Positions 100-49,350 of a stretch of DNA of 55,630 bases are shown piece by piece (position 1 is the stretch's first letter; every line of letters starts with the position of its first letter). The translations under genes were made by a program, and so were the position numbers. A model generated the notes under the pieces. That model made no database searches, was not told the origin of the DNA, and saw nothing but the letters and a program-made list of their open reading frames with translations. The stretch is from positions 1 through 55,630 of IMG/VR virus record IMGVR_UViG_3300025930_000003. One strand, written 5' to 3'. The DNA comes from a virus.

Positions 100-125
100 C
101 CTTTCTAGACCCTAAACATCAACAA

Positions 126-162
126 TTCTTCGCTTCAGATTATTAAAACCTGAAGCGAAGAA
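126..162 (+). terminator. Strong hairpin after the right-arm operon, probable terminator
   Basis: A perfect 13-bp stem (126-138 with 150-162, arm TTCTTCGCTTCAG) has an 11-base loop and is followed by CTCTTTCT. On the circular map it lies about 145 bases after the stop of the gene ending at 55511 and just before the next plus-strand gene. The T tract is interrupted, so it could be a partial terminator or an RNA-stability hairpin. Confidence 0.6.
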
Positions 163-173
163 CTCTTTCTAAT

Positions 174-376: not shown

Positions 377-643
377 ATGAACAGTTCAATAAAACGTAGC
401 CCAGCATTCGATGACAACACAGAGATATGGTTTGGAAAACATAAAGGAACTAGACTTTGTGATGTTCCTGCATCCTATCTACAATGGCTCTATGGTGAAC
501 TAGAGAAAGATGGATATGGAAAGCCTTTTGATGGAGGTAATTTTGAAGCATTGTCTACTACAATGAAAGACAAATACAAGTTATACAATTATATCTTCAA
601 CTCATATGACGCAATTCAGATGGAACTAGGAGAGAAAGAATGA
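377..643 (+). CDS. DUF3820-like small protein, 88 aa
   Basis: The stretch around residues 17-38 (WFGKHKG...VPASYLQWLY) matches the pattern of the DUF3820 family: a small domain with FGK-x-KG, then a VP-x-xYLxWL motif, common in phages and bacteria and of unknown biochemical role. Its stop overlaps the start of the next gene (ATGA), which fits translational coupling in the replication operon. The family call rests on motif memory only. Confidence 0.6.
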   Translation: MNSSIKRSPAFDDNTEIWFGKHKGTRLCDVPASYLQWLYGELEKDGYGKPFDGGNFEALSTTMKDKYKLYNYIFNSYDAIQMELGEKE

Positions 644-807
644 TAATTAAAATCCATATTTTTGTTTTCAAGGATTATGGGATTGCTACTTTTCAATACG
701 GTCCAAATGAAGAAGAAAATAAAAAGGCGATTGAAGTTTTATGTAAAAAATCAGAAACTAATTATCTGTGGGAAATAGATACAGAAAATGTTAAGTCAAC
801 CACCTAA
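640..807 (+). CDS. Hypothetical protein, 55 aa
   Basis: The ATG at 640 overlaps the previous stop (ATGA), and the reading frame runs to TAA at 805-807, 20 bases into the polymerase ORF. The protein starts MIIKIHIFVFKDYG and has an acidic, lysine-rich second half. Family unknown. The coupling overlaps at both ends are the main reason to call it real. Confidence 0.55.
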   Translation: MIIKIHIFVFKDYGIATFQYGPNEEENKKAIEVLCKKSETNYLWEIDTENVKSTT

Positions 808-2266
808 ATTCGACTATATAGGTTTGACAATTATATTGTCAAATCCAAATAGGCATGAGAAAAGAAAGCTCCTAGAGGGTAATGGAGCCTATTACTTCAT
901 GCAAGAATGTTTAAGACCTGAAATAAATGTCTATCAATGTGATGTTAGATTGATAGATGACACAAGAAAATTACTTCCTAATACAAAGGTAGTTCTCTTA
1001 CTAGGCCAGCGAGCTTTTCATCTCTTTACTGGTAGATCAGAAACATTAGATGAAGCTCGCGGAAGTCCATATATAGTAAATGATATGGTAACTATAGCGT
1101 CATTTAATTATCAAGATGCGGTTGATCCAAGAAACTTTGAAGCACAACATAATAAAGAACAAATAGAAGATGAAGAAGAATACCAAGAAGATCGAGATTC
1201 CTTTATCAGTGAAAAATCAAGAAGCCAAACCGCACGAGAAAATTATAGATTCTGGCTTAAATCTGACTGCAAGAAAGCGATCAGAATACTTGAAAATGGT
1301 GGACGTATCCCAGAACCTTCTTTTAGTCCATCGTATCACATTTATCCATCATCTGATATTGTCATTTCACTTCTCAGGGAAGAAAAGAATAAAGACCTCT
1401 ACATAGACATAGAGACAGATATAGACACACTTGACATAAGATGCTTCTCTTTCAACTTCTCAAATTCGGACAATATATACGTAGTTCCAGTTCTAGATAC
1501 AGACTACAAACTCGCCTATGAACAAATTCCTCAAATTTTTAGAGCGTTATCAATCTCATTTAGCAATAATACTACCATTGCTCATAATGGTGCTGTGTTT
1601 GATTTCTTTATTTTCGCCTATAAATATAGCATTGCCATTGGCAAGTCTGTCTTTGACACTCTCATTGCTGCTCATCGTATATATCCTACTATCGAAAAAT
1701 CATTAGGTCATCAAATTTCACTTTGGACATATCTACCTTTCCACAAAAATGAAGGTTCATATTCTTACGCTAATATGTCCCAAGCGGAAGCTCTCTGGAA
1801 GTATTGTGGAAAAGATGTATATACTATGCGTCTAGTTAAAGAAGCACAAATCGCATTCGCTAAAAATGATCCAGGACTTCTAGCTTCTATAAATCAGGCT
1901 ATGAAAAGTATAAGACCATATTTAACAATGAGCCTTCTTGGTATGCACTTTAATGATGAAGAGAGATTAGCTTGGATAGACTCAAGCGATAGATTAGCGA
2001 TGCAATATCAGCGTATTATCCAGATATTAACAGGCCCAAAAGTAGAGATGCTAATTTCCAATAAGAAGTGTGTGAACTATTTTCACAATATGTTAGGCTA
2101 TAAAGTAGTAAAACATACAAAAACTGGTGCTCCATCTTTAGCCGCTGATGCTTTATTGAAGCTAAAGCTAAAACATGAGAACCCGGTCATAGACTTCTTA
2201 ATCAAGTATAGAGAAAAACTGAAAGAGTCAGGAACTCTTAACTTCAAACAATGGATACCAAAATGA
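788..2266 (+). CDS. DNA polymerase A N-terminal half: UDG-like domain plus 3'-5' exonuclease
   Basis: This 492-aa protein corresponds to the front half of a phage family A DNA polymerase. Residues 1-120 resemble a family-4-type uracil-DNA glycosylase (KVVLLLGQRA, then ARGSPY). A DEDDy proofreading exonuclease follows: Exo I DIETD near residue 207, Exo II HNGAVFDF near 265, and Exo III YCGKD near 339, so all metal ligands are present. The end (IDFLIKYREKLKESGTL) matches the thumb helix that leads into the polymerase domain, but the ORF stops there. The palm and fingers are in a separate ORF at 3347-4411, with five small genes between them. The two products probably assemble into one enzyme. 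Exonuclease call strong; UDG call moderate. Confidence 0.88.
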   Translation: MLSQPPKFDYIGLTIILSNPNRHEKRKLLEGNGAYYFMQECLRPEINVYQCDVRLIDDTRKLLPNTKVVLLLGQRAFHLFTGRSETLDEARGSPYIVNDMVTIASFNYQDAVDPRNFEAQHNKEQIEDEEEYQEDRDSFISEKSRSQTARENYRFWLKSDCKKAIRILENGGRIPEPSFSPSYHIYPSSDIVISLLREEKNKDLYIDIETDIDTLDIRCFSFNFSNSDNIYVVPVLDTDYKLAYEQIPQIFRALSISFSNNTTIAHNGAVFDFFIFAYKYSIAIGKSVFDTLIAAHRIYPTIEKSLGHQISLWTYLPFHKNEGSYSYANMSQAEALWKYCGKDVYTMRLVKEAQIAFAKNDPGLLASINQAMKSIRPYLTMSLLGMHFNDEERLAWIDSSDRLAMQYQRIIQILTGPKVEMLISNKKCVNYFHNMLGYKVVKHTKTGAPSLAADALLKLKLKHENPVIDFLIKYREKLKESGTLNFKQWIPK

Positions 2267-2490
2267 AAATAACAGATAAACTCATAAAACAGGTAGCTAA
2301 TGTAGCACACATAGAGATGCAGATTAAGCTGCTAAAAGAAGAACTAGAACCAGCTAAGAAGAAATTAGGTAAAAAGATACCTTATGGTGTTTTTCAGATA
2401 GGAGAGTTTCAAGTAGTAAAAACTAAGATAGATGCTTGCACTATTGCACAGCATGATAGAAAAGCATACGACCAACTGACTATTAAATGA
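2263..2490 (+). CDS. Hypothetical protein, 75 aa, between the polymerase halves
   Basis: I start it at 2263 because that ATG overlaps the polymerase stop (ATGA); an in-frame ATG at 2251 also exists. The first half is a lysine/glutamate-rich helix, probably coiled-coil (IEMQIKLLKEELEPAKKKLG). The second half is short and strand-like. Function unknown. It belongs to the cluster that interrupts the polymerase. Confidence 0.6.
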   Translation: MKITDKLIKQVANVAHIEMQIKLLKEELEPAKKKLGKKIPYGVFQIGEFQVVKTKIDACTIAQHDRKAYDQLTIK

Positions 2491-2690
2491 TCTTAGTTGA
2501 GTCCATAATAGAAAAAGACTCTAAAAGATATATAGAGGTCAGAATCCACACGGCTTGCTGTAAAAGTCTATTTATAGTAGAAGATCAAGGAAAAGAACTA
2601 TTTAATCCAGTAACAAATGAATATCTCCCCAAAGGAATGGTTACAAGCATTAGGCAGGCTGAAAAATTTTATGAACAAAAACAAAGCTAA
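2487..2690 (+). CDS. Hypothetical protein, 67 aa
   Basis: The ATG overlaps the previous stop. The protein has a strand-rich start (MILVESIIEKDSKRYIEV), one CC pair near residue 24, and a helical end. No family recognised. The following gene begins 20 bases before its stop. Confidence 0.55.
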   Translation: MILVESIIEKDSKRYIEVRIHTACCKSLFIVEDQGKELFNPVTNEYLPKGMVTSIRQAEKFYEQKQS

Positions 2691-2892
2691 ATGTTCTGGC
2701 TGTAATAGTGTCCTGTCTAATATGTATCACTATATTCTACATTCAAACAAAGGCAGAAGAGAGCTATATCTCTGTGATGATTGTGTAGGAGCCTGTCTTT
2801 CTAGACTATTGAACGATAACTATGCAGGACTAAATAACTTCGAAACTATATGGAAATACATCAATGAGAAAAAAGAATCAAGAAGAATATGA
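2671..2892 (+). CDS. Small zinc finger resembling the ClpX zinc-binding domain, 73 aa
   Basis: The ATG at 2671 is preferred over the upstream ATG at 2617 because it leaves only a short overlap with the previous gene. The protein has CSGC near residue 9 and CDDC near residue 36, and the second pair is followed by a helix (YLCDDCVGACLSRLL). That spacing and the YxCDxC then hydrophobic-helix pattern resemble the C4 zinc-binding domain found at the N-terminus of ClpX, here standing alone. A generic zinc ribbon is the alternative. Confidence 0.6.
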   Translation: MNKNKAKCSGCNSVLSNMYHYILHSNKGRRELYLCDDCVGACLSRLLNDNYAGLNNFETIWKYINEKKESRRI

Positions 2893-3043
2893 GCTAGAAG
2901 CTCAGTTTCTATATTTGAAGTCTGATCTAAGAATAGTAAGAAACAGACTAGAAATGTTAGAATTTCTCGCCGCGAAACTAGATAAGAAAACTCAGCAAAA
3001 AGTAAAGAGAATAGAAAAGATAGTTAATAGTATCAAAATATGA
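2864..3043 (+). CDS. Hypothetical coiled-coil protein, 59 aa
   Basis: An unlisted small frame, ATG 2864 to TGA 3041-3043. It overlaps the previous gene by 29 bases and the next by 4 (ATGA). It is almost entirely basic and helical with leucine spacing (LRIVRNRLEMLEFLAAKL), so a short coiled coil is likely. No family recognised. Confidence 0.55.
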   Translation: MRKKNQEEYELEAQFLYLKSDLRIVRNRLEMLEFLAAKLDKKTQQKVKRIEKIVNSIKI

Positions 3044-3366
3044 AAACAATAAAAGAAATCCAGGATGAAGTAAAGGATTGGGCTTATCACAATTTTGGAA
3101 ATCATCCATCTCTTCATCCCTTGCTTGGTATAGGTGAAGAAACTGGGGAATTACAACATCATTTTCTTAAAAGAGAACAGAAGATAAGAACAAACGAAGA
3201 TCATGACGAGGAAATAAAAGATGCTCTTGCTGATCTATTTATTTTTATGTGTGATTTTTCTAACTGTGAAGATATAGATTTAGAAGCAGTTATTAATGGG
3301 GTCTGGGATAATGTTAAACAACGTAACTGGAAAACAAACAATATAAATGGTCAAAGTCCACAATAA
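3040..3366 (+). CDS. MazG-like nucleoside triphosphate pyrophosphohydrolase, 108 aa
   Basis: Shows the all-alpha NTP pyrophosphohydrolase pattern: GIGEETGELQHH near residues 30-41 supplies the ExxE metal ligands, and DEEIKDALADLF near 54-66 supplies the second ExxD pair. These enzymes hydrolyse (d)NTPs to monophosphate and pyrophosphate. In phages they tune nucleotide pools or ppGpp levels. It ends 20 bases inside the second polymerase ORF, so it is part of the insertion that splits the polymerase and is probably co-translated with it. Confidence 0.82.
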   Translation: MKTIKEIQDEVKDWAYHNFGNHPSLHPLLGIGEETGELQHHFLKREQKIRTNEDHDEEIKDALADLFIFMCDFSNCEDIDLEAVINGVWDNVKQRNWKTNNINGQSPQ

Positions 3367-4411
3367 GCTATCAGTTCCTAGAGATACATCCCACTGGATT
3401 GTTTCAGGAACTAATACTTTTCGTCTAGCAAGTAAGAAGATTCTCTCTTCTTTAAGAGATACTCCCTTTATTAATTTCGGCGGCAATAGAGCTAACATAG
3501 AGAAATCTATGCGTAGAATATGGTGTGCTGATAAAGGCTATAAACTGCTACAAAGAGATCAAGGTGGTGCAGAAGCATTAATAGTTGCATATCTATGTAA
3601 AGATGGAAACTATAGGGCTTTGTTTCGTAATGGAATAAAGCCCCATACTTTTGTTGCTCTTCATGTATTTAAAGAACAGTTCAAAAAATACTTCGATCCA
3701 GATAAAATCAACATAGCTTGTGACACAAAGATAGATGATCTAAAAAAGTTGGATTTCTGGAAAGCTCTAGATAGGCTAGTAAAATCAAGCGATGAGTGGC
3801 ACCATAATGAACGATACTATTTCATAGGAAAGAAGATAGTTCATGCTTCTTCTTATGGTATGGGAGCTAACAAATATAGAATGTCAGTTCTAGAGGAATC
3901 AGGTGGAACTATTGTCCTATCAAAGATGGATGCGGAACTCCACTTAATGACATTCTTTAAGCTATTTCCAGAAATACATGGTTGGCACGCTAGAATATAT
4001 GAACATGTAAAGAAGTTCAAAGAGCTTAGAAATCTATTCGATTTTCCTTTCGCTTTCACTGGTTATGTAGATGAGTCCAATATTAGAGAAGCTTACGCTT
4101 TTATTCCACAATCAACAGTAGGAACAATCACTAACATAGCAATAACAGAGACACAAGAATACATAGAGAAAGAAAATAAAGATTGGCACATATTGAACAA
4201 TGATCACGATAGCATGGTAGTTGAAGCACCTGATAACGAAACTGATATAAGAGAATGTAATCTAATAATGAAGCAGTTCATAGAGAAAGAGTTCATATCA
4301 CCTGTAGATAAGTGTAAGTTTAAGATGCGGTCTGGATTATCTATAGGTTATAATTGGGCACCATACAAAGAAAAAGAAAACCCAGGAGGTCTAAAAGAAG
4401 TAGAAGAATAA
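3347..4411 (+). CDS. DNA polymerase A C-terminal half: palm and fingers
   Basis: 354 aa carrying the catalytic part of a family A DNA polymerase. The start (HWIVSGTNTFRLASKK) is the usual T-x-T-G-R-L-x-S region. Motif A, with the first catalytic aspartate, is RDQGGAEA near residue 70. The O-helix is GKKIVHASSYGMG near 161-173. Motif C is DHDSMVVE near 286, with HDS where many relatives have HDE. It has no exonuclease domain of its own; that is encoded at 788-2266. I infer that the two proteins form a split polymerase. Confidence 0.88.
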   Translation: MVKVHNKLSVPRDTSHWIVSGTNTFRLASKKILSSLRDTPFINFGGNRANIEKSMRRIWCADKGYKLLQRDQGGAEALIVAYLCKDGNYRALFRNGIKPHTFVALHVFKEQFKKYFDPDKINIACDTKIDDLKKLDFWKALDRLVKSSDEWHHNERYYFIGKKIVHASSYGMGANKYRMSVLEESGGTIVLSKMDAELHLMTFFKLFPEIHGWHARIYEHVKKFKELRNLFDFPFAFTGYVDESNIREAYAFIPQSTVGTITNIAITETQEYIEKENKDWHILNNDHDSMVVEAPDNETDIRECNLIMKQFIEKEFISPVDKCKFKMRSGLSIGYNWAPYKEKENPGGLKEVEE

Positions 4412-4412
4412 A

Positions 4413-5663
4413 ATGCCAACCACCAATCTAGAAAGATGGCGTTATTACTGTGAAACTATACTGTCACCTGCTAGTTATATAGATTGGTGTTTCCACTATC
4501 TAATACTAGCATCTCTTCAAAGACGTGTATGGAGAGGACAAATTGGAGGTAATCCACTTTTCGCGAACCCTTATATAATTCTCACTGGTGAACCTGGGGT
4601 TGGTAAAGGAATCATATTAAAAGAAGTCAGTAAAGTATTACGTTTCCACAAACTAGAGGCTAAAAATGAATATACAGCAGATACAACACCGGCACAATCA
4701 AATGCACTTGGCCAGGGTAGAAAAGAACAAGCGTTATTATTCCCAGTTGGAGCAGACGCATCCACATATGAAGCTCTTGTCAGGGAAATCTCAAGAGCAA
4801 TTAGACCATTCTGGAGAGAAGTTGATGGAAAGAAAAGAGCTTACCTACACTCAAGCCTCTGTTTCTGTCTAGAAGAAATCTCCAGCTTATTTAGAAAACA
4901 CTCAGAAGATTTAGTTCGTTTCCTCTTAGTAACATATGATTGTGGTGATTACCGTTACGAAACAATTTCTAGGGGCACAGATTACATTAAAAATTGTTGC
5001 CTTGCACTTTTGGGGGGAACCACGCCAAAATTTCTTCGACGAGTATTTTCTGACGAACTTCTTAACGAAGGTTTTGCAAGTAGATGCATCTTTGTATTTG
5101 AACTTTGCAATAGATTTGACAGATTAAGGCCGCCAGAATTTAATGAAGATCAAGTCAAGGAACATAAGATAATTCTAGACCATATAAAGAAGCTTTCTAC
5201 TCTATATGGTGAAGTAAAGTTCACTCCAGAAGCATCTGAATATCTAGAACATTGGAACAAGACAGATAAATACAAAAGACCAAATACAAGTCCGAAGCTG
5301 AACTACTATTATGCTAGAAAGCCAGTAACAATGCAAAAGCTAGCTATTGGAATTCATTTTGCGGATTCGGTTACAATGGAAGTAAATCTAGATGAATGTA
5401 TAGAAGCTAGAAAATTGTTAGATAATACAGAGAAAAGGATGCACTTTGCTCTAACGAACGAAAATAAGAATCCTCTAGCAGAAGTAACAGATAGTATCTA
5501 TGACTTTATAGCTAAGAATGGAGGACAAACGAAGAAAGATTTACTTGTTCTTTTCTGGAGCGAACTACCTAATGGAACCGATTCTTTAGATGATGCACTA
5601 AGCTATCTAAATATGGTCAACAAAGTAAAACTGAAAGATAAACAATACATAATACCACAATGA
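4413..5663 (+). CDS. P-loop replication ATPase/helicase, 416 aa
   Basis: A Walker A motif, GEPGVGKG, lies near residue 58 after a helical start that resembles DUF3987-type phage helicase/primase proteins (YIDWCFHYLILASLQRRVW). An acidic strand ending CLEEI near residue 150 is a candidate Walker B. The C-terminus looks like a small winged-helix (TKKDLLVLFWSEL). Its place between polymerase and ThyX fits the replicative helicase or helicase loader. The exact family is uncertain. Confidence 0.7.
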   Translation: MPTTNLERWRYYCETILSPASYIDWCFHYLILASLQRRVWRGQIGGNPLFANPYIILTGEPGVGKGIILKEVSKVLRFHKLEAKNEYTADTTPAQSNALGQGRKEQALLFPVGADASTYEALVREISRAIRPFWREVDGKKRAYLHSSLCFCLEEISSLFRKHSEDLVRFLLVTYDCGDYRYETISRGTDYIKNCCLALLGGTTPKFLRRVFSDELLNEGFASRCIFVFELCNRFDRLRPPEFNEDQVKEHKIILDHIKKLSTLYGEVKFTPEASEYLEHWNKTDKYKRPNTSPKLNYYYARKPVTMQKLAIGIHFADSVTMEVNLDECIEARKLLDNTEKRMHFALTNENKNPLAEVTDSIYDFIAKNGGQTKKDLLVLFWSELPNGTDSLDDALSYLNMVNKVKLKDKQYIIPQ

Positions 5664-6831: not shown

Positions 6832-7043
6832 GAAAAATAATATGTGATATATGCGGAAATGAATCAGGAAACTATGATAGAAATATTCATGGCAAATTCA
6901 TTCTGCATAAAAAGCAACCACCATCAGAAGTTTGTGAAATAGCTATTGAAGGAATAGTTATGAAGTATAACTTCTGCACTACAGGAATAGATATATGTAG
7001 AAGCTGTCTAATTGCTGGAATAAAGTCTGCTATCTTAGACTAA
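6828..7043 (+). CDS. Small zinc-ribbon protein, 71 aa
   Basis: CDIC near residue 5 and CRSC near residue 58 form two cysteine pairs typical of a treble-clef or zinc-ribbon knuckle. It is the last gene of the left plus-strand operon. Its TAA overlaps the stop of the convergent giant virion gene by 3 bases, so there is no room for a terminator between them. Confidence 0.65.
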   Translation: MRKIICDICGNESGNYDRNIHGKFILHKKQPPSEVCEIAIEGIVMKYNFCTTGIDICRSCLIAGIKSAILD

Positions 7044-10000
7044 GGAACTGCACTAGACTTTGCTTCATTTACTGCATTCTGCATCAAATAATCTGCTAAT
7101 CTATTCTGTGCAACTTCCTCTCCTTGAGATTTCTCCAGATAAGTAAGGTAGCGAATAAATCTAAGAGGAATAGTATCTGGATTAGGCATAGTCTGGTAGC
7201 TATTCTTCTTTATTTTTCCTAATTCAGCAATCAATCTTTCAGGATCACCGTCTGCTTTCTCAAATGCTTTATCTAAGAGTTTAGGTAATAATTCAACAGC
7301 TTCTCCTACATCTCCAGTCCTCTTAAACTTCTTCATATCATCAGGCCCAAATTGCCTTTGTCCCCAATCAGTTGATAAGTCTCTAATTGGATTGCCCGCG
7401 AGAGTATTATACACTCTAAGGTCGCGGAACTTATTTGCTCTCTCTATTTCATCTTTTCTCTCAGCAGAAACTTGTGCCATAATCATTCTAGAAGTCTGGA
7501 TATTGTCCTCTATAAACTTACCTATTGCATCTCCAACTAATTCTGGAGAAAATCCATTATCGTTAGATGATTTAGCTAGAGAGAAAGCTAAGTCTGCTGT
7601 ATCTGCTGCCGCGTCTAGAAGAATATTATTATACCATTGTGGCTTATTTCTGCCATACATAGTATCCATTACACCTTTTGATATATCACCTAACATTCCA
7701 GCATAACCAGAAGCTGCGGCTAATCCAGTTAATTTATAGAGTGATGCCATCTTTGTATCTTTTCCCTCTTCTTCACTAATAGCCTTTATCTCTTCCAATT
7801 TAGGAGTTTTCTCTTTTCTTCCTGTAATCGCTTCTACTAGTTTCGTAACAGCAGCACCACCAATTAGACCACCAACTGTAGCCATTAAAGCTGGATAAGG
7901 ATTCCCATTCTTTAATGGATTAACTACATGTTTCATGAAGTTGTTTGCTTTTTCTATGTTCCATCTAGCTAGAGATAGAACAGGAGAAAGCTGACCTTTC
8001 ATAGCTATAGAAGGTAATCCTCTAGGATCATAGGTTCCTTGAACAGAATCTACATATCGGGCAGATATTTTGTTAATATCTTCTGGAGTCAGTTCCGCTT
8101 TCTTCCAATCTATGTCTTTTCCAAAGTCATCAAACCACTTCTTTCCTTGTTTTCCTAGTTTGCCATTGTGGAACTGACTATGAAAATCTAAAGTAGTAAA
8201 TCTACCCATTCCAAATGCGGTAGCTCTAGTCATCTGTTCTAGGTAGTTTCTTCCTTGAACATCAGAAAGAATATCTCTTGTTCTCCTAAGAGTAGAAATT
8301 AAATCAGGACTCTCGTTCCATTCAAGGGAGTTCATATTTGTTCTATTTCTGCCTGTTTTGAAGGAGTCAGAGATATTCTGGGACATATTAGAGAAAGCAT
8401 CTATAGCAGATCTAATTGTCTGGATAGGATTTTGCTGATGCTGCATACCTAAAGTGAAGTTGGTAGTAAAATCTTTTATTCCAGTTAAAATACCCATTCT
8501 ACCAGCTCTAACATTTCCACCAAGGGCATTTAAAAATTGCTCTTCTTTTGGATTGATACCTGTAATATCATCATAGACGTTACTAACAGCTTCGTTTCCT
8601 TGATACTTCTTTATGTTCTCTAATAGGCCTTCTTTAGAGCCTATTGCATCATGATAAGCGAACCTTCTAGATACTCGTTCCATGTATCTATTAAGCCTGT
8701 TGAGTAGATTCTTTTCTCTCCATTCTGGAGGAATATTTAGAACTTCTGCCTTATCTATCTGGCTAAATTGCTTGGCTATATTGACCTTCTCTTTAGTAAA
8801 AGATCTAAGATATGCTTTAAGATCTTCTGCGGCCCTTTCTGGTGTTTTACCTTCTACTTTGGTTTGATAGTCTAAAAACTCCTGCTTATATTGTGCTGAT
8901 TTAGCAGAATCTGGCCTTTCTTGTAGTTCACCAATTACTTCATTAGAAGGTGTCTGAGGAAGAAAGTTCTTCTTTAGTCTATTCTTTGGTCCAATTCCTC
9001 TAGCAGTTTTATCAGTATCTACCAACTGCATTGCTTCATTTATCGCGTCCCTTATTTTAACTTCATTTTCTGTCAGATCAATATTTGGTTTCTTATCTTG
9101 AACATTATCAAACCATTGTCTTACATTCTGGAGTTCCTTTGTATCTTGTTTTAGATAGTCTGGAACATTTCTTATGTTGTCTATTAGAGAGCTTAGATTT
9201 GTCTGGTTTCTAATTTTCCTCAGAATACCATTTACGTATTTACCTCTATTTTCTGTTATCTTTTCAAAGAAGTCAGAGAAAGAGTCTTTTATTGATTTGT
9301 CTGGAATCTTATCTATTTCTGGCCTTAAACCAAATAGGTGCATTTCCCAAGGAGTTCTAGAAACTGGTAAAGTAGAAGGATCAATGTCATGTTTCTCTGC
9401 TACCATCTTTAGTTTTTGGGTAGTTTCATCCTCAGAAAATCTAGGCAACTTAGAACCTTCTTCCTCTGAATAGTAGTTACTATATTTTCCTCCAGTAGTA
9501 GAGGGACCATGATAATTTTTAGTAGTTCCCAGAACAGCATCTATAGCGAAAGCGAGTTCAGGATTCTGGTTATAGACTTCTGAACGATATTTAGGCCAAT
9601 TTTTCCAGATAACATCAGGATCATTTATTCCTCTTTCACCAAAATCTTCTAGATCATGTGTCTTAGAGAAGTCTATATCCATCAAATCTTCCCTTGTAAC
9701 TTCCTTCATTCCATCTTCATAGGAAATATGCTTCTTTGAATTTGTATGTTCTGGATATTGTTCTAGAAAGGCTTTCTTAACTTCTTTTGCTGTTTTAGTT
9801 ACATTAATTGAGCCATCTGATTCTCTAAGTAAATCTCTAAGATCATTAATATCAAATGTTCCAGTCCCAACAAAGTCAGATAGAAGCTTCTGATTATCTG
9901 GATCTTCTTGAAATTCAGTCCAATCTTCTTCTAGTTGCTTATCTATAGCTTCACCACTATATTTCTGTTTCCAAGCCTCTTGATATTGTGTTAGACCAGA

Positions 10001-13000
10001 ATCAGTAGAACCTTCTTTTGGATTAAGTCCTTTTATCCATTTCTCATAAGGAACATAATCTACCGCTTCCTTATCTTCAAATTTAGGTAATTTTCCTTCT
10101 TCTTCAGAGAATCTTTTACCAAGATTGGCTTCTCTTAAGTTAGAAGCAAGAGCAGATATTTTCCTTCTAAAATCTTCTGAACCAGCAGCAGGAATATATC
10201 CTCTTTCAACCATCATACCAATCATCTTGTCGCCAATAGGATCTTTTTTAGCAATAGCCTCTATAATCCTTTTGCCATGATACATTGGATCATTGTTAAA
10301 TGGAACTTTAGATTGATACTTAGTATGCAGGCCTTTCAGTATTGGCATCATAAACTTACCAATACCTTCTGCTTCTCTTTCCCAAGCATCATAGGTAGCA
10401 GCATATTCTTTATCAGAAATTTTAGGAAGATTTCCTTCTTCTTCAGAATATTTCCTACCTGACCTAAGTTCTTCAATTATCTTATCATTCAACTTAGTCC
10501 ATTGCTTACCTTCCTTAGATTCATGGTTAATAGCTTTGTATTCAGCCGCGAGCTTATTTAATTCGTCTGAGCCTAATTTATTCTTATATCGACCAAATAT
10601 AGTTTGTGCAGCCTCAGATACAGGAGTTCCTCCTAGTCCCTCATTCAACTCTGCATTTTCTACATCATATGGTTTTGTTACATTATGAATAGCATAAGAC
10701 ATTTCATCCATTACTTCATTTAAGGAATCTTCATTAGGTGTTTCACCCTCTTTAATTAGATACTCATTAGCTAATTTTTCTAATCTTTCATTATACTTTA
10801 TCTCTTCTAGTTTCTTTCCCATTGTATCTTCTACTCTTCTTTGCATCCTAGTAAGATTATGGATTCTGAAGTCACGATCTGAAATCATTTTCTTCCACTC
10901 TTCATGCTCTTTTCTAACCTTATCTAAAGGAGATTCTTCAGATTCAGAAAGCTTAGGAGTTTTAGCTGACAGATTCTTCTGTGCCTCAATCATTCTAGCA
11001 ATAGCACCTTTAAATTTAGCCTTATGTTCTTCTGTGCTTGCATGTCCAGAACCTAAAGAATCCCTAGTCTTATGGTAGGCTTTCTGTGTAGAACGATAGT
11101 CTTTCTTTGCAGAATCTAGTTCCTTTTTTAGATCTGCTAGTTCTTTATCTAGTGGTGAACTTTCATCTTCAGAAAGTTTAGGCTTATCTCGTTCAATAGT
11201 TAAAGAACTTTCTGTTGGATGAACTTCATAAGGAAATTCAACTGTTTTCGCCTCAGTTTCTAGATCTCTAAGTTGCTTTAATTGAGCTTCACTTAAACCA
11301 GACTTAGAAGCTTCTATCCATTTTCCTTTATAGTTTTGTCCAGTTGGACTCTTACCTACAGATTCAATCTTATAGACGTAAGACTTTAAATCAGGCTCAA
11401 TATCTTTATTACCTGTCATTCTAGCCCAATTGTTCTTATCAAATTCATTTATTCCAGCGTAACCTAGTTTCTGATAAATCTCATCTTTCTTTTTCTCAAA
11501 AGCTTCAAAGGCTTCTACTTTTTCTGGTTTAATAACTTTAATTCCAACTTTAGTTCTTACTTCTTTAGATGGTAGTTCTTTATCTAGTGGAGATTGTTCT
11601 GATTCTGCATTTTTATATGGTTTATATTTTCTTTCTGGAGAAGCATTATCATCCGGATATAAATTAGAAACTTTATCAGCAAGTTGCCTTGCTTTCTTAA
11701 AGGCTTTATTATATTCAGGTGAATCAATTCCATGATAAAGATAAGCATTTTCCATCTCTTGATGGGCTTCTTCTAACTTAACAAATAATTCTGCTCTATC
11801 CTGTTCAAAGTCTTTTTTACCTATCTCCCTATCTGTAGATTTACCATATTTATCTAAAGGAGATTCTTCAGATTCTGCATTTTTAGCTTCTGGATGAATA
11901 GCTGGAAAATCTTGTTTTGGTCTATTTTGAGACTCTAGAACAAGAGCATTATATCGCTTAGCTAAAGCTAATCTATTTGATCTTGCTCTTAAGTATTCAG
12001 GAGAATCCTCTCCAAAGATTTTCTTCATCTTCTTCTCCATAAAGACAGAAGCCTTAAAATCCTCATCCATTCTTTTTAAATTATCCCCAAGTTTATTTCT
12101 TTCCTCAATAAACTCTTCCTTTCCCATAGGAGGTTCAAATCCAGCATTTTCTTCTTCTGAGTATTTACCTTCTTCCTCTGAATAAACTTTAGGAGTTCTA
12201 GCTTCCTCTATAGTAGTTTTTTCTTCAGGAGGAGCAGTAACTTTAGGAGTATATCCTTTGCCAAAAGTCTCATGAAAAGGAGCATCATTGATAAGCTTAT
12301 TAGAAAGCAAACGAACAAAATCTTTAGATTCCGCATTACCATATTTAACTTTTACAGCAGACCAGAAGTCTTTTAAGAAAGCTTTAAATTTACCATCTCC
12401 ATCTGTTCTTAATACACGTCGAATAGCATCTTCACCAGTATGTGTAGCATACCATTCTCTTACAGAACCATTCTTTCCTTCCTTTTTCCTTGCTTTAGCC
12501 CATTCCTGATATTCAGTAGATTTCTCTACAGTTCTATCACCCTTTGTGACCATCTTCTTTTCCGCATCGGTTCCATGATTTATTAGATCCTCTCTGAATC
12601 CTTCAAAAATCTCGTGCGGTGTTGTATCAATAGTAGCTTTAGTTGGATGAATTAAAGCAATAGCTGTTTCTAGTCCTTCTCTTGGAAGCATTTCTCCTTT
12701 TGCTTCTACAGTTCCAACTACTTTGCCTTCTTTATCATAGATATTCTTTACTGGAACTTTTTTCTGAACGTCTATATTTCTAGTAATACCAAGGCGTTGA
12801 AACATCTTAAAAAGCCTATTAGTTGGCTTTAAAGTAAGTCCTTCTTTTTCTGCTCCTTTTATTAAAGGATCTTGTCTTTTAGCTGAGATTTCAGAAAGTT
12901 TAGATTCAGGTAAAGTTCCTTCTTCTTCACTATATAATCCACCCTCATTTAAGTCTGTATCTTCTCTTCTAGGATACTTTAGCTTATTTACATCTTCCTC

Positions 13001-14389
13001 TTTGCTTTCTAGCATTTTACTCTCTAGAGGAACATCTTCTTTTACCTGTTGTTGCTTAGCAATCTCATCAGCAACTTTAAGATCTTTCTCAGTCTGAGCT
13101 TGTTTAGCTGCGGCTTCTACTTCTTCAGCAGACAGTGGAACTTTAGCTTGTTCTTCTAGAGGGACTTCAGGTTCAGTAGTTAGCTTCTTCTCTTTAGGAA
13201 CCTTACCTTCTTTATATGATTTACCAAATTTCTCCGCATCAGCTTGAGCTTTCTCTTCTGCTAATCTAATCTGATGTTCTTGTTGATTCTTGTATTCATC
13301 TCTTAAAGCAGCTTTCTCATCCTCAGAAAGATTCTTAAACTCTTTCTCATAATTTAGATCATGATAGTCTGCTACAGCTTCATCTTCTTTATGATATTGT
13401 TCTGCTGTAGCTTCTGCTTCCGCTTTAGCTTTTGCTTCTTCCTCATCTAGTTTTGCTGCAAGCTTCTGCTCTTTTTCAACTCTCTTTTCTTGCTGCTTCA
13501 TTAGCCTAAGAGCTTGAGATTCTGTTTCTTTAGCCGCAGCCTTTTCTTCATATCCAGAAACTACAGGTTCAGTAGAAAGTGGAGATTTAGGTCTAATTGT
13601 AGTATCTGGCTCTTCAACAACTTCAGACTCTACATCTACAGCACCTTTTCTCTGTGCCTCTCTAGCACCCTTAAATTCTGGTTCTCTATAAACATTTGGA
13701 TGGAGTCCAATTTTCTTTGTCCATTGTCTAGGATCACTTAAGAGTCCACCACCTACAGTTTCAAGTCCTAAAATACCAAGAGCTTCTGGGTCACCTTGTA
13801 GGGCTTTAGTCCTAATATCTTTATCTGTTGCTAACCTTAAAGTTGGTTGAATAGCAGCATTTAGAGCTACATTTTTAAGAGCATTCAAATCAGCAGCGGG
13901 AACTGTTCTATAAGGTGTAATAAGTCCAGATAAAGCTCTACCAGCACCAGGTAATGCTTTAACACTAGAACCTAAAGTTGGCAAAGCAGAAGCAATTCCT
14001 CCTACAGTAGTAGCAACTGGGTGTTCTTGAACATCAGTCTCTAGCTGTTGAGATAGTTCTGGAGAAACTTCTTCAATAGCCTTTTTCTGTAACCAATGTG
14101 TTCCTAAAGAAGCAACAAGTCCAGTTCCTAAACCAGCAACTAATGAAGCACCACCAGTAAAAGGAGCTGCGGCAAGAGAACCTGCTACTAATCCAGCAGT
14201 TGTAGGTAATACTCCAGTTCCGAAACTTCTAGCTCCAGCAGCATAAGGATTACTCTTAGGTTTTATTACGCTTGGAGTAGTAGAAACATTAGCAGATTGA
14301 CCTTCTGCTTCATCTACTAAATCATATTCATCAGGATTTAATCCCTGATCTTTTAGCTTCTGTCTAGTTTGGTAGTCGTAGATTGGCAT
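7040..14389 (-). CDS. Giant internal virion / polyvalent protein, 2449 aa
   Basis: One ORF takes 13% of the genome. Residues 1-150 contain glycine/alanine-rich hydrophobic segments; about 230-480 is a charged E/K/A-rich rod. Residues ~480-1640 are short domains separated by a recurring acidic linker, either (Y/F)SEEEG-x-LP or ESEESPLDK. About 590-720 resembles a metallopeptidase domain with HEIFEGF in place of HExxH. The C-terminal third (1640-2449) is helical with a hydrophobic stretch near 2160-2185. The layout resembles large polyvalent proteins that are packaged and ejected with phage DNA. It is the last gene of the virion operon, where podoviruses place internal ejection proteins. Role inferred; the individual domains are not identified. 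Confidence 0.8.
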   Translation of the reverse strand: MPIYDYQTRQKLKDQGLNPDEYDLVDEAEGQSANVSTTPSVIKPKSNPYAAGARSFGTGVLPTTAGLVAGSLAAAPFTGGASLVAGLGTGLVASLGTHWLQKKAIEEVSPELSQQLETDVQEHPVATTVGGIASALPTLGSSVKALPGAGRALSGLITPYRTVPAADLNALKNVALNAAIQPTLRLATDKDIRTKALQGDPEALGILGLETVGGGLLSDPRQWTKKIGLHPNVYREPEFKGAREAQRKGAVDVESEVVEEPDTTIRPKSPLSTEPVVSGYEEKAAAKETESQALRLMKQQEKRVEKEQKLAAKLDEEEAKAKAEAEATAEQYHKEDEAVADYHDLNYEKEFKNLSEDEKAALRDEYKNQQEHQIRLAEEKAQADAEKFGKSYKEGKVPKEKKLTTEPEVPLEEQAKVPLSAEEVEAAAKQAQTEKDLKVADEIAKQQQVKEDVPLESKMLESKEEDVNKLKYPRREDTDLNEGGLYSEEEGTLPESKLSEISAKRQDPLIKGAEKEGLTLKPTNRLFKMFQRLGITRNIDVQKKVPVKNIYDKEGKVVGTVEAKGEMLPREGLETAIALIHPTKATIDTTPHEIFEGFREDLINHGTDAEKKMVTKGDRTVEKSTEYQEWAKARKKEGKNGSVREWYATHTGEDAIRRVLRTDGDGKFKAFLKDFWSAVKVKYGNAESKDFVRLLSNKLINDAPFHETFGKGYTPKVTAPPEEKTTIEEARTPKVYSEEEGKYSEEENAGFEPPMGKEEFIEERNKLGDNLKRMDEDFKASVFMEKKMKKIFGEDSPEYLRARSNRLALAKRYNALVLESQNRPKQDFPAIHPEAKNAESEESPLDKYGKSTDREIGKKDFEQDRAELFVKLEEAHQEMENAYLYHGIDSPEYNKAFKKARQLADKVSNLYPDDNASPERKYKPYKNAESEQSPLDKELPSKEVRTKVGIKVIKPEKVEAFEAFEKKKDEIYQKLGYAGINEFDKNNWARMTGNKDIEPDLKSYVYKIESVGKSPTGQNYKGKWIEASKSGLSEAQLKQLRDLETEAKTVEFPYEVHPTESSLTIERDKPKLSEDESSPLDKELADLKKELDSAKKDYRSTQKAYHKTRDSLGSGHASTEEHKAKFKGAIARMIEAQKNLSAKTPKLSESEESPLDKVRKEHEEWKKMISDRDFRIHNLTRMQRRVEDTMGKKLEEIKYNERLEKLANEYLIKEGETPNEDSLNEVMDEMSYAIHNVTKPYDVENAELNEGLGGTPVSEAAQTIFGRYKNKLGSDELNKLAAEYKAINHESKEGKQWTKLNDKIIEELRSGRKYSEEEGNLPKISDKEYAATYDAWEREAEGIGKFMMPILKGLHTKYQSKVPFNNDPMYHGKRIIEAIAKKDPIGDKMIGMMVERGYIPAAGSEDFRRKISALASNLREANLGKRFSEEEGKLPKFEDKEAVDYVPYEKWIKGLNPKEGSTDSGLTQYQEAWKQKYSGEAIDKQLEEDWTEFQEDPDNQKLLSDFVGTGTFDINDLRDLLRESDGSINVTKTAKEVKKAFLEQYPEHTNSKKHISYEDGMKEVTREDLMDIDFSKTHDLEDFGERGINDPDVIWKNWPKYRSEVYNQNPELAFAIDAVLGTTKNYHGPSTTGGKYSNYYSEEEGSKLPRFSEDETTQKLKMVAEKHDIDPSTLPVSRTPWEMHLFGLRPEIDKIPDKSIKDSFSDFFEKITENRGKYVNGILRKIRNQTNLSSLIDNIRNVPDYLKQDTKELQNVRQWFDNVQDKKPNIDLTENEVKIRDAINEAMQLVDTDKTARGIGPKNRLKKNFLPQTPSNEVIGELQERPDSAKSAQYKQEFLDYQTKVEGKTPERAAEDLKAYLRSFTKEKVNIAKQFSQIDKAEVLNIPPEWREKNLLNRLNRYMERVSRRFAYHDAIGSKEGLLENIKKYQGNEAVSNVYDDITGINPKEEQFLNALGGNVRAGRMGILTGIKDFTTNFTLGMQHQQNPIQTIRSAIDAFSNMSQNISDSFKTGRNRTNMNSLEWNESPDLISTLRRTRDILSDVQGRNYLEQMTRATAFGMGRFTTLDFHSQFHNGKLGKQGKKWFDDFGKDIDWKKAELTPEDINKISARYVDSVQGTYDPRGLPSIAMKGQLSPVLSLARWNIEKANNFMKHVVNPLKNGNPYPALMATVGGLIGGAAVTKLVEAITGRKEKTPKLEEIKAISEEEGKDTKMASLYKLTGLAAASGYAGMLGDISKGVMDTMYGRNKPQWYNNILLDAAADTADLAFSLAKSSNDNGFSPELVGDAIGKFIEDNIQTSRMIMAQVSAERKDEIERANKFRDLRVYNTLAGNPIRDLSTDWGQRQFGPDDMKKFKRTGDVGEAVELLPKLLDKAFEKADGDPERLIAELGKIKKNSYQTMPNPDTIPLRFIRYLTYLEKSQGEEVAQNRLADYLMQNAVNEAKSSAVP

Positions 14390-45504: not shown

Positions 45505-47757
45505 ATGTCAAGAAAAGCTAAAGTAAAAGTAATTACTCTAGAAGATGAGATAAAGAAACTTATTCCTTGTCTTAATCAAGCGAAGTCTAGGTTCTCCTTT
45601 CACAAAGAGGAAAGAACCTATGGCTTTCTCGCACTAAACTTTGGTATAACAATAAAAGATCCAGTTTTAAAGAACAGACCAATAGTCTTTGAAGATATCA
45701 ATTTGTTTCATAGTCAGTTAATAGTTAGATTAAAGGATAAATATGACATCAGAAAATACATCGGTGATAGAAAAGTTGAAGTGCTTGAGGGAAGTAGTGA
45801 GCCACAAGGAGAAATGGGGGGAAATATTGGAATTATCCCCAGCGGAGAAAGAAGCGATACTCCAGAAGCACATGACAGCGAGAATGTTAGTAGAGAAGTA
45901 TCTAGGATTGAAAAGAAAGATGAAGAAGTCAAAGAGATTGATAGCTTCACACTTGAAGAAAGAAATAAAGAAACGGAATCGCACTTTGATTCGATATTTG
46001 TTGCTAAGTGGCCAGATCAGAAAGCTAACTTACTGAAGCAAAAAGATGGTTGTGAGCAACTAGAGACTGCCCGCAAACTTTTTAATGAGATCTGGTATAA
46101 TCTTAAACCAGGTTTCTTGTTAAATGCTCAAACTGGAGCAGGAAAAACTTACATAGTCGGTTCCGTAATAAAGAATCTACTAAATCATGGACTATTAGAG
46201 AAGGCTAGATGTATTAGTCCAATACCGATTGCTTACATTACTAAAACTTCTATTGTAGAACAGACAGAGAATGATGTTCTAAAAGAGGCTTTCAATCTAG
46301 ATGTTGTCAACACAGTTCATGTTTTCAACATAGAGACTCTTCGATCTAAGTTTGGTAAGTTGTTCGTAAAGGAACGAATTAACGTAGTCAATGGACAAGA
46401 GACTATAGAATATGAATGGAATCCTAACATTGTTCCATGTCTCTTTATCTGGGACGAATGTCAGATTCTAGCTAGAGAAGAATCTATTCAGTCCAAGATA
46501 GCACAAGCAGTTAGCAGGGTGAAGAATAAAACTATTATTCAAATCTTTATGTCAGCTACTCCATTTTCCCGCGTTTACGAAGCTAGATGTTTCGCTGTAG
46601 CTACTCATACTACATTCTTTTTCGGTATGGGAGAAGTAGAACTTACTGATAGAAACTGGAAACAGTTCTCTCATCAAATTGCTGCGCCATCAGATCCAAT
46701 GGATTATTGTGAAGCAGCTATTAAGAGATTTGTAGAAAAAATGGATCCTTATATTCTACGAATTAAGAACATAAGGCCAAAACATAGAGCCTTCAATGGT
46801 GTAAGCAAGATATTCTTCAGAACAGACGAAGAGAGGCTTGAATATGAGACAGCTTGGGAACGATATCAAAAAGAGAAAGCGAAGATAGAAGAAGAGTCTC
46901 TTAGGACAGGAGAAGGTTCCTATTTCCAGCTTTTAGCACAATTGACTATTATGAGAAAAGCTGCTGAAAAATGCAGACGTTATCATCTAGCAGAATTTAT
47001 GCACAAAAGTTGGTTAGCTGGTAAAGCTCCTGTATGCGTTGTCGCTTTCAAAGGAACAATTACTGGAGCATATAGAATTCTAGTAGAAGATTATGGTTGG
47101 TGCCGCGACGATGTTTCAATCATTTGGGGTGGTTCAGTAGAGTCAATGAATCTGAAGAAGAAAGTAGGATTGAAGATCAAGAACAATAAAGCTTTCCAGG
47201 AAGCAATGAAGGAAGCGGACATTGATTTACAAGAACTTGGTTTCGATCTAGAGAATCTAGAAGTTAAGACAGAAGAGCAGATAGCTTTTGAGAAGCTACA
47301 TAATCTTCTCACACAAGATCCAGAGTCAAGAGAGAAAGAGAGAATAAGATTCCAGAAGCAGAAATCCAGAGGATTATTCTTAACCTTTAAATCTGGTGGA
47401 GTAGGACTTTCTGCACACCATCAATATCCTGAAGCAAAACAGAGAGAAACACTATTAACTCCTGTCTATTCAGAAAAGGAACTTGTTCAAGGTTTAGGAC
47501 GTTGTCCTAGAATTACTTCTTTAACAGACACATATCAATTCATGTGCTACTATGTAGGAACAATTGAGGAAGCGGTTGCACAAAGAGTTGTTATGAAGTT
47601 GAAGAATCTTAAGCATGTAGTTAAGATGAAAGAGGCTTGGGAAGATATATTTACAGGGAAGAAAGTTCAACTCAAGCAAGATGATGAAGAAACTATGGAT
47701 ATGGTAGATGAATTTGAAGGTGGTAACTCAATGCTAGAATATGTGGAGGAAAAATAA
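45505..47757 (+). CDS. SF2 helicase / DNA translocase, 750 aa
   Basis: Two RecA-like domains. Walker A AQTGAGKT lies near residue 208, motif II WDECQ near 315, motif III MSATP near 349 and motif VI QGLGRCPR near 661. An N-terminal ~190 residues of unknown fold and a charged insert near 570-600 are extra. SF2 helicases of this kind remodel forks or recombination intermediates, or help transcription. It heads the right-arm DNA metabolism block. Confidence 0.85.
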   Translation: MSRKAKVKVITLEDEIKKLIPCLNQAKSRFSFHKEERTYGFLALNFGITIKDPVLKNRPIVFEDINLFHSQLIVRLKDKYDIRKYIGDRKVEVLEGSSEPQGEMGGNIGIIPSGERSDTPEAHDSENVSREVSRIEKKDEEVKEIDSFTLEERNKETESHFDSIFVAKWPDQKANLLKQKDGCEQLETARKLFNEIWYNLKPGFLLNAQTGAGKTYIVGSVIKNLLNHGLLEKARCISPIPIAYITKTSIVEQTENDVLKEAFNLDVVNTVHVFNIETLRSKFGKLFVKERINVVNGQETIEYEWNPNIVPCLFIWDECQILAREESIQSKIAQAVSRVKNKTIIQIFMSATPFSRVYEARCFAVATHTTFFFGMGEVELTDRNWKQFSHQIAAPSDPMDYCEAAIKRFVEKMDPYILRIKNIRPKHRAFNGVSKIFFRTDEERLEYETAWERYQKEKAKIEEESLRTGEGSYFQLLAQLTIMRKAAEKCRRYHLAEFMHKSWLAGKAPVCVVAFKGTITGAYRILVEDYGWCRDDVSIIWGGSVESMNLKKKVGLKIKNNKAFQEAMKEADIDLQELGFDLENLEVKTEEQIAFEKLHNLLTQDPESREKERIRFQKQKSRGLFLTFKSGGVGLSAHHQYPEAKQRETLLTPVYSEKELVQGLGRCPRITSLTDTYQFMCYYVGTIEEAVAQRVVMKLKNLKHVVKMKEAWEDIFTGKKVQLKQDDEETMDMVDEFEGGNSMLEYVEEK

Positions 47758-47758
47758 T

Positions 47759-48229
47759 ATGGCAAAAGTATTAGATAATAAAGAAGTTCTTGATAAAATC
47801 TTATCTAGAATTGTTCCACATCTTAATGGATGTTGGATATATCATGGAACTTTTGATGAATATGGTTATGCTAGAATAAGACATAGATATAAATATTGGA
47901 GAGTTTCTAGATTAATATACAAACTAACCTTTCCTAAACTATATAAAGAAGAATTAAATACTTTACATAAATGTGACAATCCAGCATGTGTTAATCCAGA
48001 ACATTTATTTCAAGGAACTCAGGCTGATAATATAGAAGATATGATAAGTAAAGGCAGACATAGTATAGAGGGTAGAGCTAAAGCATTTTTAACTGAAGAC
48101 CAAGTTAGAGAAATCAGAAGTTTAATTAAACAAGGAGTAAAGCAAATAGATATAGCGAAAAGATTTGATGTAACAGACTCAATTATTTCAAATATAAATA
48201 AGAATAGAATTCATAGAAATGTTATATGA
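47759..48229 (+). CDS. HNH endonuclease with C-terminal HTH, 156 aa
   Basis: Start at 47759, with GAGGAA upstream. The HNH core is LHKCDNPACVNPEHLFQGT near residues 69-87, with N and H ligands present. A helix-turn-helix follows near 125-150 (GVKQIDIAKRFDVTDSIISN). This is the pattern of free-standing HNH homing endonucleases, and its place between helicase and ligase fits such an insertion. A role in DNA processing is the alternative. Confidence 0.85.
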   Translation: MAKVLDNKEVLDKILSRIVPHLNGCWIYHGTFDEYGYARIRHRYKYWRVSRLIYKLTFPKLYKEELNTLHKCDNPACVNPEHLFQGTQADNIEDMISKGRHSIEGRAKAFLTEDQVREIRSLIKQGVKQIDIAKRFDVTDSIISNINKNRIHRNVI

Positions 48230-49122
48230 TAACTCAATTTCGTCCAATGTTAGCATACGGTCTTTGTGAGGAAGATTTAAAAAGCTTGAAGTTCCCATTG
48301 ATTCTACAACCTAAGCTTGATGGCGTGCGCTGTTGTATTGTAGAAGGTAAAGCACTATCAAGAAAGCTAAAAAGAATTCCTAATAGATATATTAGAACTA
48401 AACTGGAAGCCTTTAAAAATAAACCACCAGTTTTAATAGATGGTGAGTTGGTTATTCAAGGTAAAACATTTAACGAAATACAATCAGCCATAATGAGTGA
48501 GGATGGAGAACCTAACTTTAGATATATAATCTTTGATGCACTTAATGAATGGAGTAATGAATCTTATATACATAGAAAGCAATTTCTAGATTATAGTCTA
48601 GAATACACAAACAACCTATTCTTTGTTAGTGATGTAACTTTAGATCAGTATGAAAAGCTAGATGAGTGGGAACAATATATTCTAAAAGATGGACATGAAG
48701 GTATCATTTTAAGAGATCCTTTCTCACCATATAAGTTCGGTCGTTCCACTCTAAGAGAACAATCACTTCTAAAATTCAAACGCTTTAACGATTCTGAAGC
48801 GGTAATCATTAGCTCTAATGAACTAATGACAAACTCTAACATACTAGAAACTGACGAACTAGGATATGCTAAACGATCTAGTGCCGCAGCTAACTTAATA
48901 AGAACTTGTCAGCTTGGTAGCTGGACTGTGAAAGACATTAACATTAATTCCAGATTCTATAATGTAGAGTTTAACGTAGGAAGTGGATTTACTTTAGAGC
49001 AAAGAATAAAGTTCTGGAATACAAAACAAGATGGGAAAATAATAACCTATAAGTATCAGGCACATGGAAGTAAAGATAAACCTAGGAGTCCAATTTGGTT
49101 AGGGTTTAGAAAGGATATATGA
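48226..49122 (+). CDS. ATP-dependent DNA ligase, 298 aa
   Basis: The adenylation motif KLDGVR lies near residue 29, with the lysine that takes the AMP. Motif III-like strand (FRYIIFDAL) is near 100, motif IV (HEGIILRDP) near 157 and motif V (LLKFKRF) near 181. The C-terminal OB domain ends with SPIWLGFRKD. At 298 aa it is a small phage-type ligase that seals nicks in replication and repair. Confidence 0.92.
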   Translation: MITQFRPMLAYGLCEEDLKSLKFPLILQPKLDGVRCCIVEGKALSRKLKRIPNRYIRTKLEAFKNKPPVLIDGELVIQGKTFNEIQSAIMSEDGEPNFRYIIFDALNEWSNESYIHRKQFLDYSLEYTNNLFFVSDVTLDQYEKLDEWEQYILKDGHEGIILRDPFSPYKFGRSTLREQSLLKFKRFNDSEAVIISSNELMTNSNILETDELGYAKRSSAAANLIRTCQLGSWTVKDININSRFYNVEFNVGSGFTLEQRIKFWNTKQDGKIITYKYQAHGSKDKPRSPIWLGFRKDI

Positions 49123-49343
49123 GTGAACTAACAACATGCAATTATTGTAATTTAAGGTGGATAAAAGATAGAGCGAAAAAAGAGAAAAAGAAAGTAACAA
49201 AGCTTCCAACTTCTCAAGGACTTGGTGGATTTGAGATCTTTGTTCATCCAAAAGAGATAGATATAAAGAAACTTTCCAAGAAAGAAAGAACTAAATACTT
49301 CAGCTCTTGGATGTGGGAAATAACAGATCATTGTGTTTGCTAA
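49119..49343 (+). CDS. Hypothetical cysteine-rich protein, 74 aa
   Basis: ATGA overlap with the ligase. CNYC near residue 7 and CVC at the very end could bind zinc together. Between them is a strongly basic stretch ([15 protein letters not shown]). It immediately precedes the sigma-54 activator. Confidence 0.55.
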
Positions 49344-49350
49344 AAATAAT

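Follow-up and report, generated by a model that had tools for sequence, protein, structure and literature searches.

We find that a viral record from IMG/VR (IMGVR_UViG_3300025930_000003; the whole stretch analysed, 55,630 bases classed as linear, is called the window here) carries the exonuclease and polymerase parts of a family A DNA polymerase on two separate open reading frames (ORFs). Comparison with relatives suggests, with a probability that we put at roughly 0.86, that this locus encodes one replicative polymerase made as two polypeptides that form a working two-chain enzyme. The two ORFs lie 1,080 nucleotides (nt) apart, and the start of the second overlaps the 3' end of a small MazG-like ORF by 20 nt. 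Their domains and catalytic residues are as follows.

788-2266, plus strand: N-terminal polymerase chain (N half), 492 residues, with a UDG-fold-like N domain (about 1-190), a 3'-5' exonuclease domain (about 196-360) and most of the thumb
1406-1414, plus strand: Exo I residues D207 and E209 (DIET), invariant in 40 aligned rows
1601-1603, plus strand: Exo II aspartate D272, from the alignment of split and continuous rows
1814-1816, plus strand: Exo III aspartate D343, from the same alignment
3347-4411, plus strand: C-terminal polymerase chain (C half), 354 residues, with the palm, the fingers and all polymerase motifs
3422-3424, plus strand: arginine (R26) of T-x-T-x-R-L, from the alignment of split and continuous rows
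3557-3559, plus strand: catalytic aspartate of motif A (D71), from the same alignment
3830-3856, plus strand: motif B, K162 ... H166 (E. coli 762 position) ... Y170, from alignment with relatives
4205-4210, plus strand: His-Asp of motif C (H287, D288), from the alignment of split and continuous rows

The profile PHROG_17 (phage DNA polymerase) runs across the break, the first ORF matching its positions 566-942 and the second its positions 969-1239. Pfam recognises DNA_pol_A (5e-14); its DNA_pol_A_exo1 match (5e-5) falls 0.1 bit below the cut-off, membership of the exonuclease family still being given by PHROG_17 across both halves. The UDG domain, degenerate in the window, is found by Pfam only in more distant relatives. 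Motifs A (DQGGAE) and C (HDS) are divergent, and a histidine, H166 (window 3842-3844), occupies the position of Phe762 in E. coli Pol I, as it does in >90% of aligned relatives, split or continuous; the residue at position 762 (Phe, Tyr or Leu) is in common use for typing viral polymerases. Neither a second family A polymerase nor one of family B was found in the window.

With the window's C half alone as query, a scan of viral contigs returned no matches, and tblastn with its N half hit neither a named phage nor a named plasmid; the polymerases of named phages are very distant from the window's, at 22-29% identity. Scanning IMG/VR with an alignment of the window and the phages Kuura and ABTNL-3 yielded 80 loci; a further scan, made with split members, gave another 80, which include repeats. 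A script that placed both halves in each locus called 68 continuous and 68 split, with 18 lacking an N half on the stretch covered. Two of the split calls (L085, L107) reflect nothing more than a frame break close to the N terminus, and we count them as continuous; two loci apparently without an N half (L009, L101) have it at the opposite end of the contig, which fits circular or circularly permuted genomes. With identical sequences removed and the window included, 53 distinct loci are broken at the window's site (site 1), and L112 and L141 are broken at another (site 2).

The comparison with continuous polymerases that the earlier note on this DNA had called for can be made against the 68 loci with both parts in one ORF. 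Uncultivated marine relatives carry the same enzyme as a single ORF of about 787 residues, along which the two ORFs of the window align one after the other; residue 486 of the N half and residue 4 of the C half fall about five codons apart on continuous proteins, so that no part is missing. The nearest relative is 68-74% identical to the window, with contigs from two metagenomes, and C halves across the split clade are 38-68% identical to the window's. Recurrence of the same break in independent metagenomes excludes an artefact of assembly in a single sample, and with it the sequencing mosaic for which the earlier note had allowed. A scan of 84,980 cellular genomes found a single close relative; its 23.6-kb contig had been binned to a Methanoregulaceae archaeon but is probably a misbinned virus, so we claim no host.

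Both halves are held under purifying selection. By the Nei-Gojobori method, the ratio of nonsynonymous to synonymous substitution rates (dN/dS) between the window and L007 is 0.155 for each half, with dS near saturation; for the pair L043/L047, in which dS is only 0.12-0.14 and unsaturated, the halves give 0.05 and 0.105. Other pairs give 0.05-0.11, and the overall range for both halves is 0.05-0.16. Nine catalytic or motif residues (D207, E209, D272 and D343 in the first chain; R26, D71, Y170, H287 and D288 in the second) are identical in 29/29 split and 11/11 continuous rows. An AlphaFold2 model of the window's C half has a mean predicted local distance difference test score (pLDDT) of 87.4 and a predicted template modelling score (pTM) of 0.83; only its first 45 residues, the part adjoining the N half in the continuous enzyme, fall mostly below 60. 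Searched with Foldseek, the model matched Pol I large fragments and so has the polymerase fold. In the model of a continuous relative, L012 (pLDDT 85.3, pTM 0.83), site 1 corresponds to residues 461-468, a loop that follows the thumb helix 435-452 and leads to the strands ahead of T-x-T-x-R-L, and site 2 to the turn ahead of the strand bearing motif A. The earlier note had put the break in the thumb just before T-x-T-G-R-L, and the L012 model agrees, with the division exactly at the thumb/palm junction. Its further statements, that the catalytic motifs survive on both sides and that neither half decays, agree with the invariance of all tested residues in 40 rows, divergent as the motifs are, and with the low dN/dS. 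Its suggestion that the enzyme works as two chains appears, given the continuous relatives, the purifying selection and the invariant residues, to be the best reading.

Almost all of the window's gap is coding, in five ATG-initiated ORFs that overlap head to tail:

2251-2490, plus strand: 79 residues, no assigned function, homologue in L007
2487-2690, plus strand: 67 residues, no assigned function, homologue in L007, dN/dS 0.15
2617-2892, plus strand: 91 residues, paired CxxC motifs (by eye), homologue in L007
2864-3043, plus strand: 59 residues, no assigned function
3040-3366, plus strand: 108 residues, MazG/PRA-PH-like pyrophosphohydrolase, from Pfam and PHROG

The coordinates of two polymerase ORFs 1,080 bases apart with five small genes between them are thus as first described, and the MazG-like enzyme named among those genes is recovered weakly by Pfam (19.6 against 22 bits required) and by PHROG_715 (MazG-like) at 1.6e-6. 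Across split loci this slot ranges from 0 to about 2 kb, and its cargo differs by lineage, with sequences unrelated between relatives. In the window's nearest relative the slot holds six genes, of which three have homologues among the window's five. In a large group, L114-L158, it contains a DNA ligase gene, which a 55-residue ORF and a 180-residue protein matching a 'ferredoxin' PHROG may accompany. The window's own ligase gene lies away from the slot, at 48226-49122, beside an HNH gene (47741-48229). Elsewhere the slot holds DUF7831, methyltransferase-like, SEC-C, GroES-like, PRA-PH and PF12843 proteins, the GroES-like (Cpn10) gene lying between the halves at 5696-6001 of L149 and scoring slightly over the Pfam cut-off. 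HNH endonuclease genes occur within the slot of L036, L102 and L093. The gap shrinks to 199 nt in L097 and 138 nt in L104, and in L110 and L096 there is no cargo at all, the stop codon of the N half overlapping the start codon of the C half as ATGA. In 46/51 loci the C half starts within -20 to +4 nt of the last cargo stop.

The small PF12843 protein is encoded upstream of the N half in the window (377-643) and inside the polymerase slot in L102 (5513-5734); the gene is thus found on either side of the break, depending on the locus. A protein resembling it (by eye) precedes the C half in L009 (1747-2040).

The gap might hold a group I or group II intron that splices itself out, or encode a split intein, so that a continuous enzyme is restored; an intron now lost had been offered in the earlier note. 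Introns are well known in phage DNA polymerase genes. The authors describing phage MEP401 weighed an intron for a similar gap (PMC10580990). At the gathering score, Rfam gave no match in the window or in ten relatives, and on the gap at E values up to 10 it gave chance snoRNA-type matches only. The 1,080 nt are filled by five overlapping ORFs; cargo is unrelated between relatives, unlike an intron core; the gaps of L104 and L097 are too small, and the two insert-free loci refute an intron for the lineage. Pfam found no intein pieces in the window, and because the halves align to their ends with the continuous protein, ending and beginning where it does, the gap is not an intein. Restoration by splicing is accordingly scarcely tenable. 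Pseudogenes are frequent among split genes, and the window could lack part of the genome, so one or both halves could be decaying remnants while another polymerase replicates the genome; this, too, we regard as very improbable, given the low dN/dS in both halves, the invariant catalytic residues, conservation over a clade of such divergent C halves and the lack of a second polymerase in the window.

The history of the break was read from a maximum-likelihood tree of 41 rows with both halves concatenated. Twenty-five rows split at site 1 and three split at site 2 form one group (bootstrap 86; Shimodaira-Hasegawa-like approximate likelihood ratio test, SH-aLRT, 89), beside the continuous rows. 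One further site-1 split, L109, groups with the continuous L083 (97/87), and a single clade of all splits is rejected by the approximately unbiased (AU) test (p 0.008), the branches concerned being long. We therefore dropped a shared origin for all site-1 splits: the tree points to one old origin for most of them, before the clade diversified, and L109 probably represents a second origin at the same site. In the site-2 loci the gene is joined again at site 1, and the break lies immediately ahead of motif A, with C halves at:

L112, 6119-7144
L141, 6283-7284
L164, 6304-7302

This second break falls at the start of a short insertion, the roughly 30 residues that precede the C half, which is unbroken in L102 and L105. 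Support for the nesting of the trio within the split group is 100/100, a tree constrained to exclude it is worse by 257 log-likelihood units, and L112 has a Met-Met exactly at the position where sister C halves begin, which is suggestive of a fused start codon. The simplest history for these loci would be a break, a rejoining and a second break.

The sequences show that the ancestral gene was a single ORF and that the break, in an exposed loop where thumb meets palm, preceded diversification of the clade. The first chain supplies the UDG-like, exonuclease and thumb parts, and the second the palm, the fingers and both catalytic aspartates. The halves are translated as neighbouring genes of one operon, in which the small genes of the slot turn over, and the two chains would meet after translation to form one active proofreading enzyme, in the manner of the split gp43A/gp43B of phage 25 and the split NrdA of phage Aeh1. 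With less weight, we infer that the break arose through insertion of a mobile or homing gene and that the cargo was afterwards exchanged or lost by recombination; in one branch the halves may then have rejoined and the gene broken again just before motif A. There is about an even chance, in our estimate, that the lineage has passed through cycles of breaking, cargo exchange, rejoining and re-breaking, in which the thumb/palm and pre-motif A loops are used repeatedly, the polymerase gene acts as a landing slot for other genes of the replication operon, and being split is a lasting condition, not a transient accident.

Several points weigh against this account, one of which concerns the neighbouring junction, formed with the gene downstream:

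4413-5663, plus strand: DUF3987 AAA protein, labelled primase in relatives, adjoining the polymerase throughout the lineage (Pfam, PHROG and gene order in relatives)

A ThyX gene also lies downstream of the polymerase. We had considered the slot to be unlike any other junction, and rejected this, as the C half/DUF3987 junction gathers small genes too; the claim is thereby reduced to a difference of degree, with a median of 437 nt in the slot against 3.5 nt at that junction (p 6e-5, in a test that counts related loci as independent) and with 22/24 representatives filled against 10/24. The clade of site-1 splits has moderate support (86/89) and does not include L109, which leaves the number of origins uncertain. 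The search by Pfam or PHROG found no nuclease gene in the window's gap, so that insertion as the cause is argued by analogy; of the earlier note's idea that a mobile nuclease delivered the cassette, what stands is the presence of HNH genes in the slots of three relatives, and what does not is any such gene in the window's insert. A second polymerase may lie outside the window, contig completeness being uncertain. Finally, assembly of the chains into one active, proofreading enzyme is a prediction, drawn from the invariant catalytic residues, the purifying selection, the lack of a second polymerase in the window and the structure models.

Two other histories bear on how the break arose. A frameshift could have created the ATGA stop/start overlap, with small genes entering the new junction afterwards: L110 and L096 show exactly this form, and entry of small genes at the C half/primase junction indicates that cargo requires no special element. 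Both loci are nested among cargo-bearing ones, however, and so may be cargo losses, and the slot is filled far more often than the next junction; we consider this sequence of events possible but somewhat unlikely. Alternatively, the site-2 trio was never unjoined at site 1, and other branches broke there many times, for example through a site-targeting nuclease, as the apparently independent second break in L109 and the AU result against one clade might suggest. This seems to us quite doubtful: it requires many independent events, and it would be favoured by an unbroken site in basal members of several split branches, of which the loci sampled showed none; it also sits poorly with the firm nesting of the trio, the likelihood cost of excluding it and the Met-Met of L112.

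Split family A polymerases have already been published; what is new is the thumb/palm site, the clade-wide age, the changing slot, and fusion followed by re-splitting. Among the open-licence papers searched we found none on a thumb/palm break, on such a clade or on a moving break. In the Methylophilales (OM43) phages MEP401 and MEP402 (Zobellviridae), a family A polymerase lies on two ORFs with a small gene between, a split present in most related metagenomic genomes (PMC10580990). Like the window, these have a family A replicase on two ORFs around a small gene without assigned function; they differ in their break, which we place just before motif A rather than in the thumb/palm loop, in having one 77-residue gap gene, and in a gene order with the helicase-primase before the polymerase. 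Two distant relatives, Vibrio phage vB_VspS_VS-ABTNL-3 (MF497422) and Caulobacter phage Kuura (OQ067476), share the order UDG-exonuclease-polymerase then DUF3987 and likewise have the polymerase in two pieces with small genes between:

Kuura, L002 2649-6053
ABTNL-3, L005 1469-4603

ABTNL-3 is broken between NLQN and motif A and Kuura inside the exonuclease domain, as against the thumb/palm junction in the window. In the annotation shown for both phages, one piece is called hypothetical or the pieces are treated as separate genes, and the split is unremarked. Microcystis phage Mel-JY34 and phage ctMlz233 have the window's domain order and downstream DUF3987 in one ORF, with a UDG domain recognisable by Pfam where the window's is degenerate.

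Outside family A, gene 43 of Aeromonas phages 25 and 44RR is split into 43A and 43B, with a seg nuclease or a spacer between, and the gp43A and gp43B products of phage 25 co-purify and are active (PMC2988022); this, too, is a phage replicase in two chains, although of family B, with an unrelated fold and another break site. In phage Aeh1, ribonucleotide reductase is split by the homing nuclease gene mobE into nrdA-a and nrdA-b, fully functional as separate chains (PMC2988022), an essential enzyme in pieces as in the window, but a different enzyme with one identified nuclease insertion and no multi-gene slot. The window locus shows what characterises such genes in pieces, namely complementary intact parts, continuity in relatives and purifying selection on both; a nuclease in the gap, as with mobE, is seen in L036, L102 and L093 only.

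Three further features of the window stand apart from the polymerase. The product of 49333-50202 has a strong sigma-54 activator AAA domain (Pfam 5.9e-63) in this phage-like record, which suggests a phage-encoded enhancer-binding protein. A 2,449-residue ORF occupies 7040-14389 on the minus strand, and a giant reverse-strand gene is also found near the polymerase-DUF3987 pair in relatives. Immediately ahead of the first ORF, an 18-pair hairpin followed by T-rich sequence (124-164, minus strand) is a possible terminator or module boundary.

These loci form a natural series in which a single essential enzyme appears unbroken, split around cargo, split with no cargo between the halves, and rejoined with a new break at another place. 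The series permits tests of how a replicase survives cutting, which loops tolerate breaks, and whether the split is neutral or useful, and the break sites offer ready-made positions at which to engineer a split Pol I-type polymerase. They also carry a warning for annotation, as searches that expect one ORF overlook or misname split polymerases, and metagenomic polymerase surveys using C halves alone would miscount domain content.

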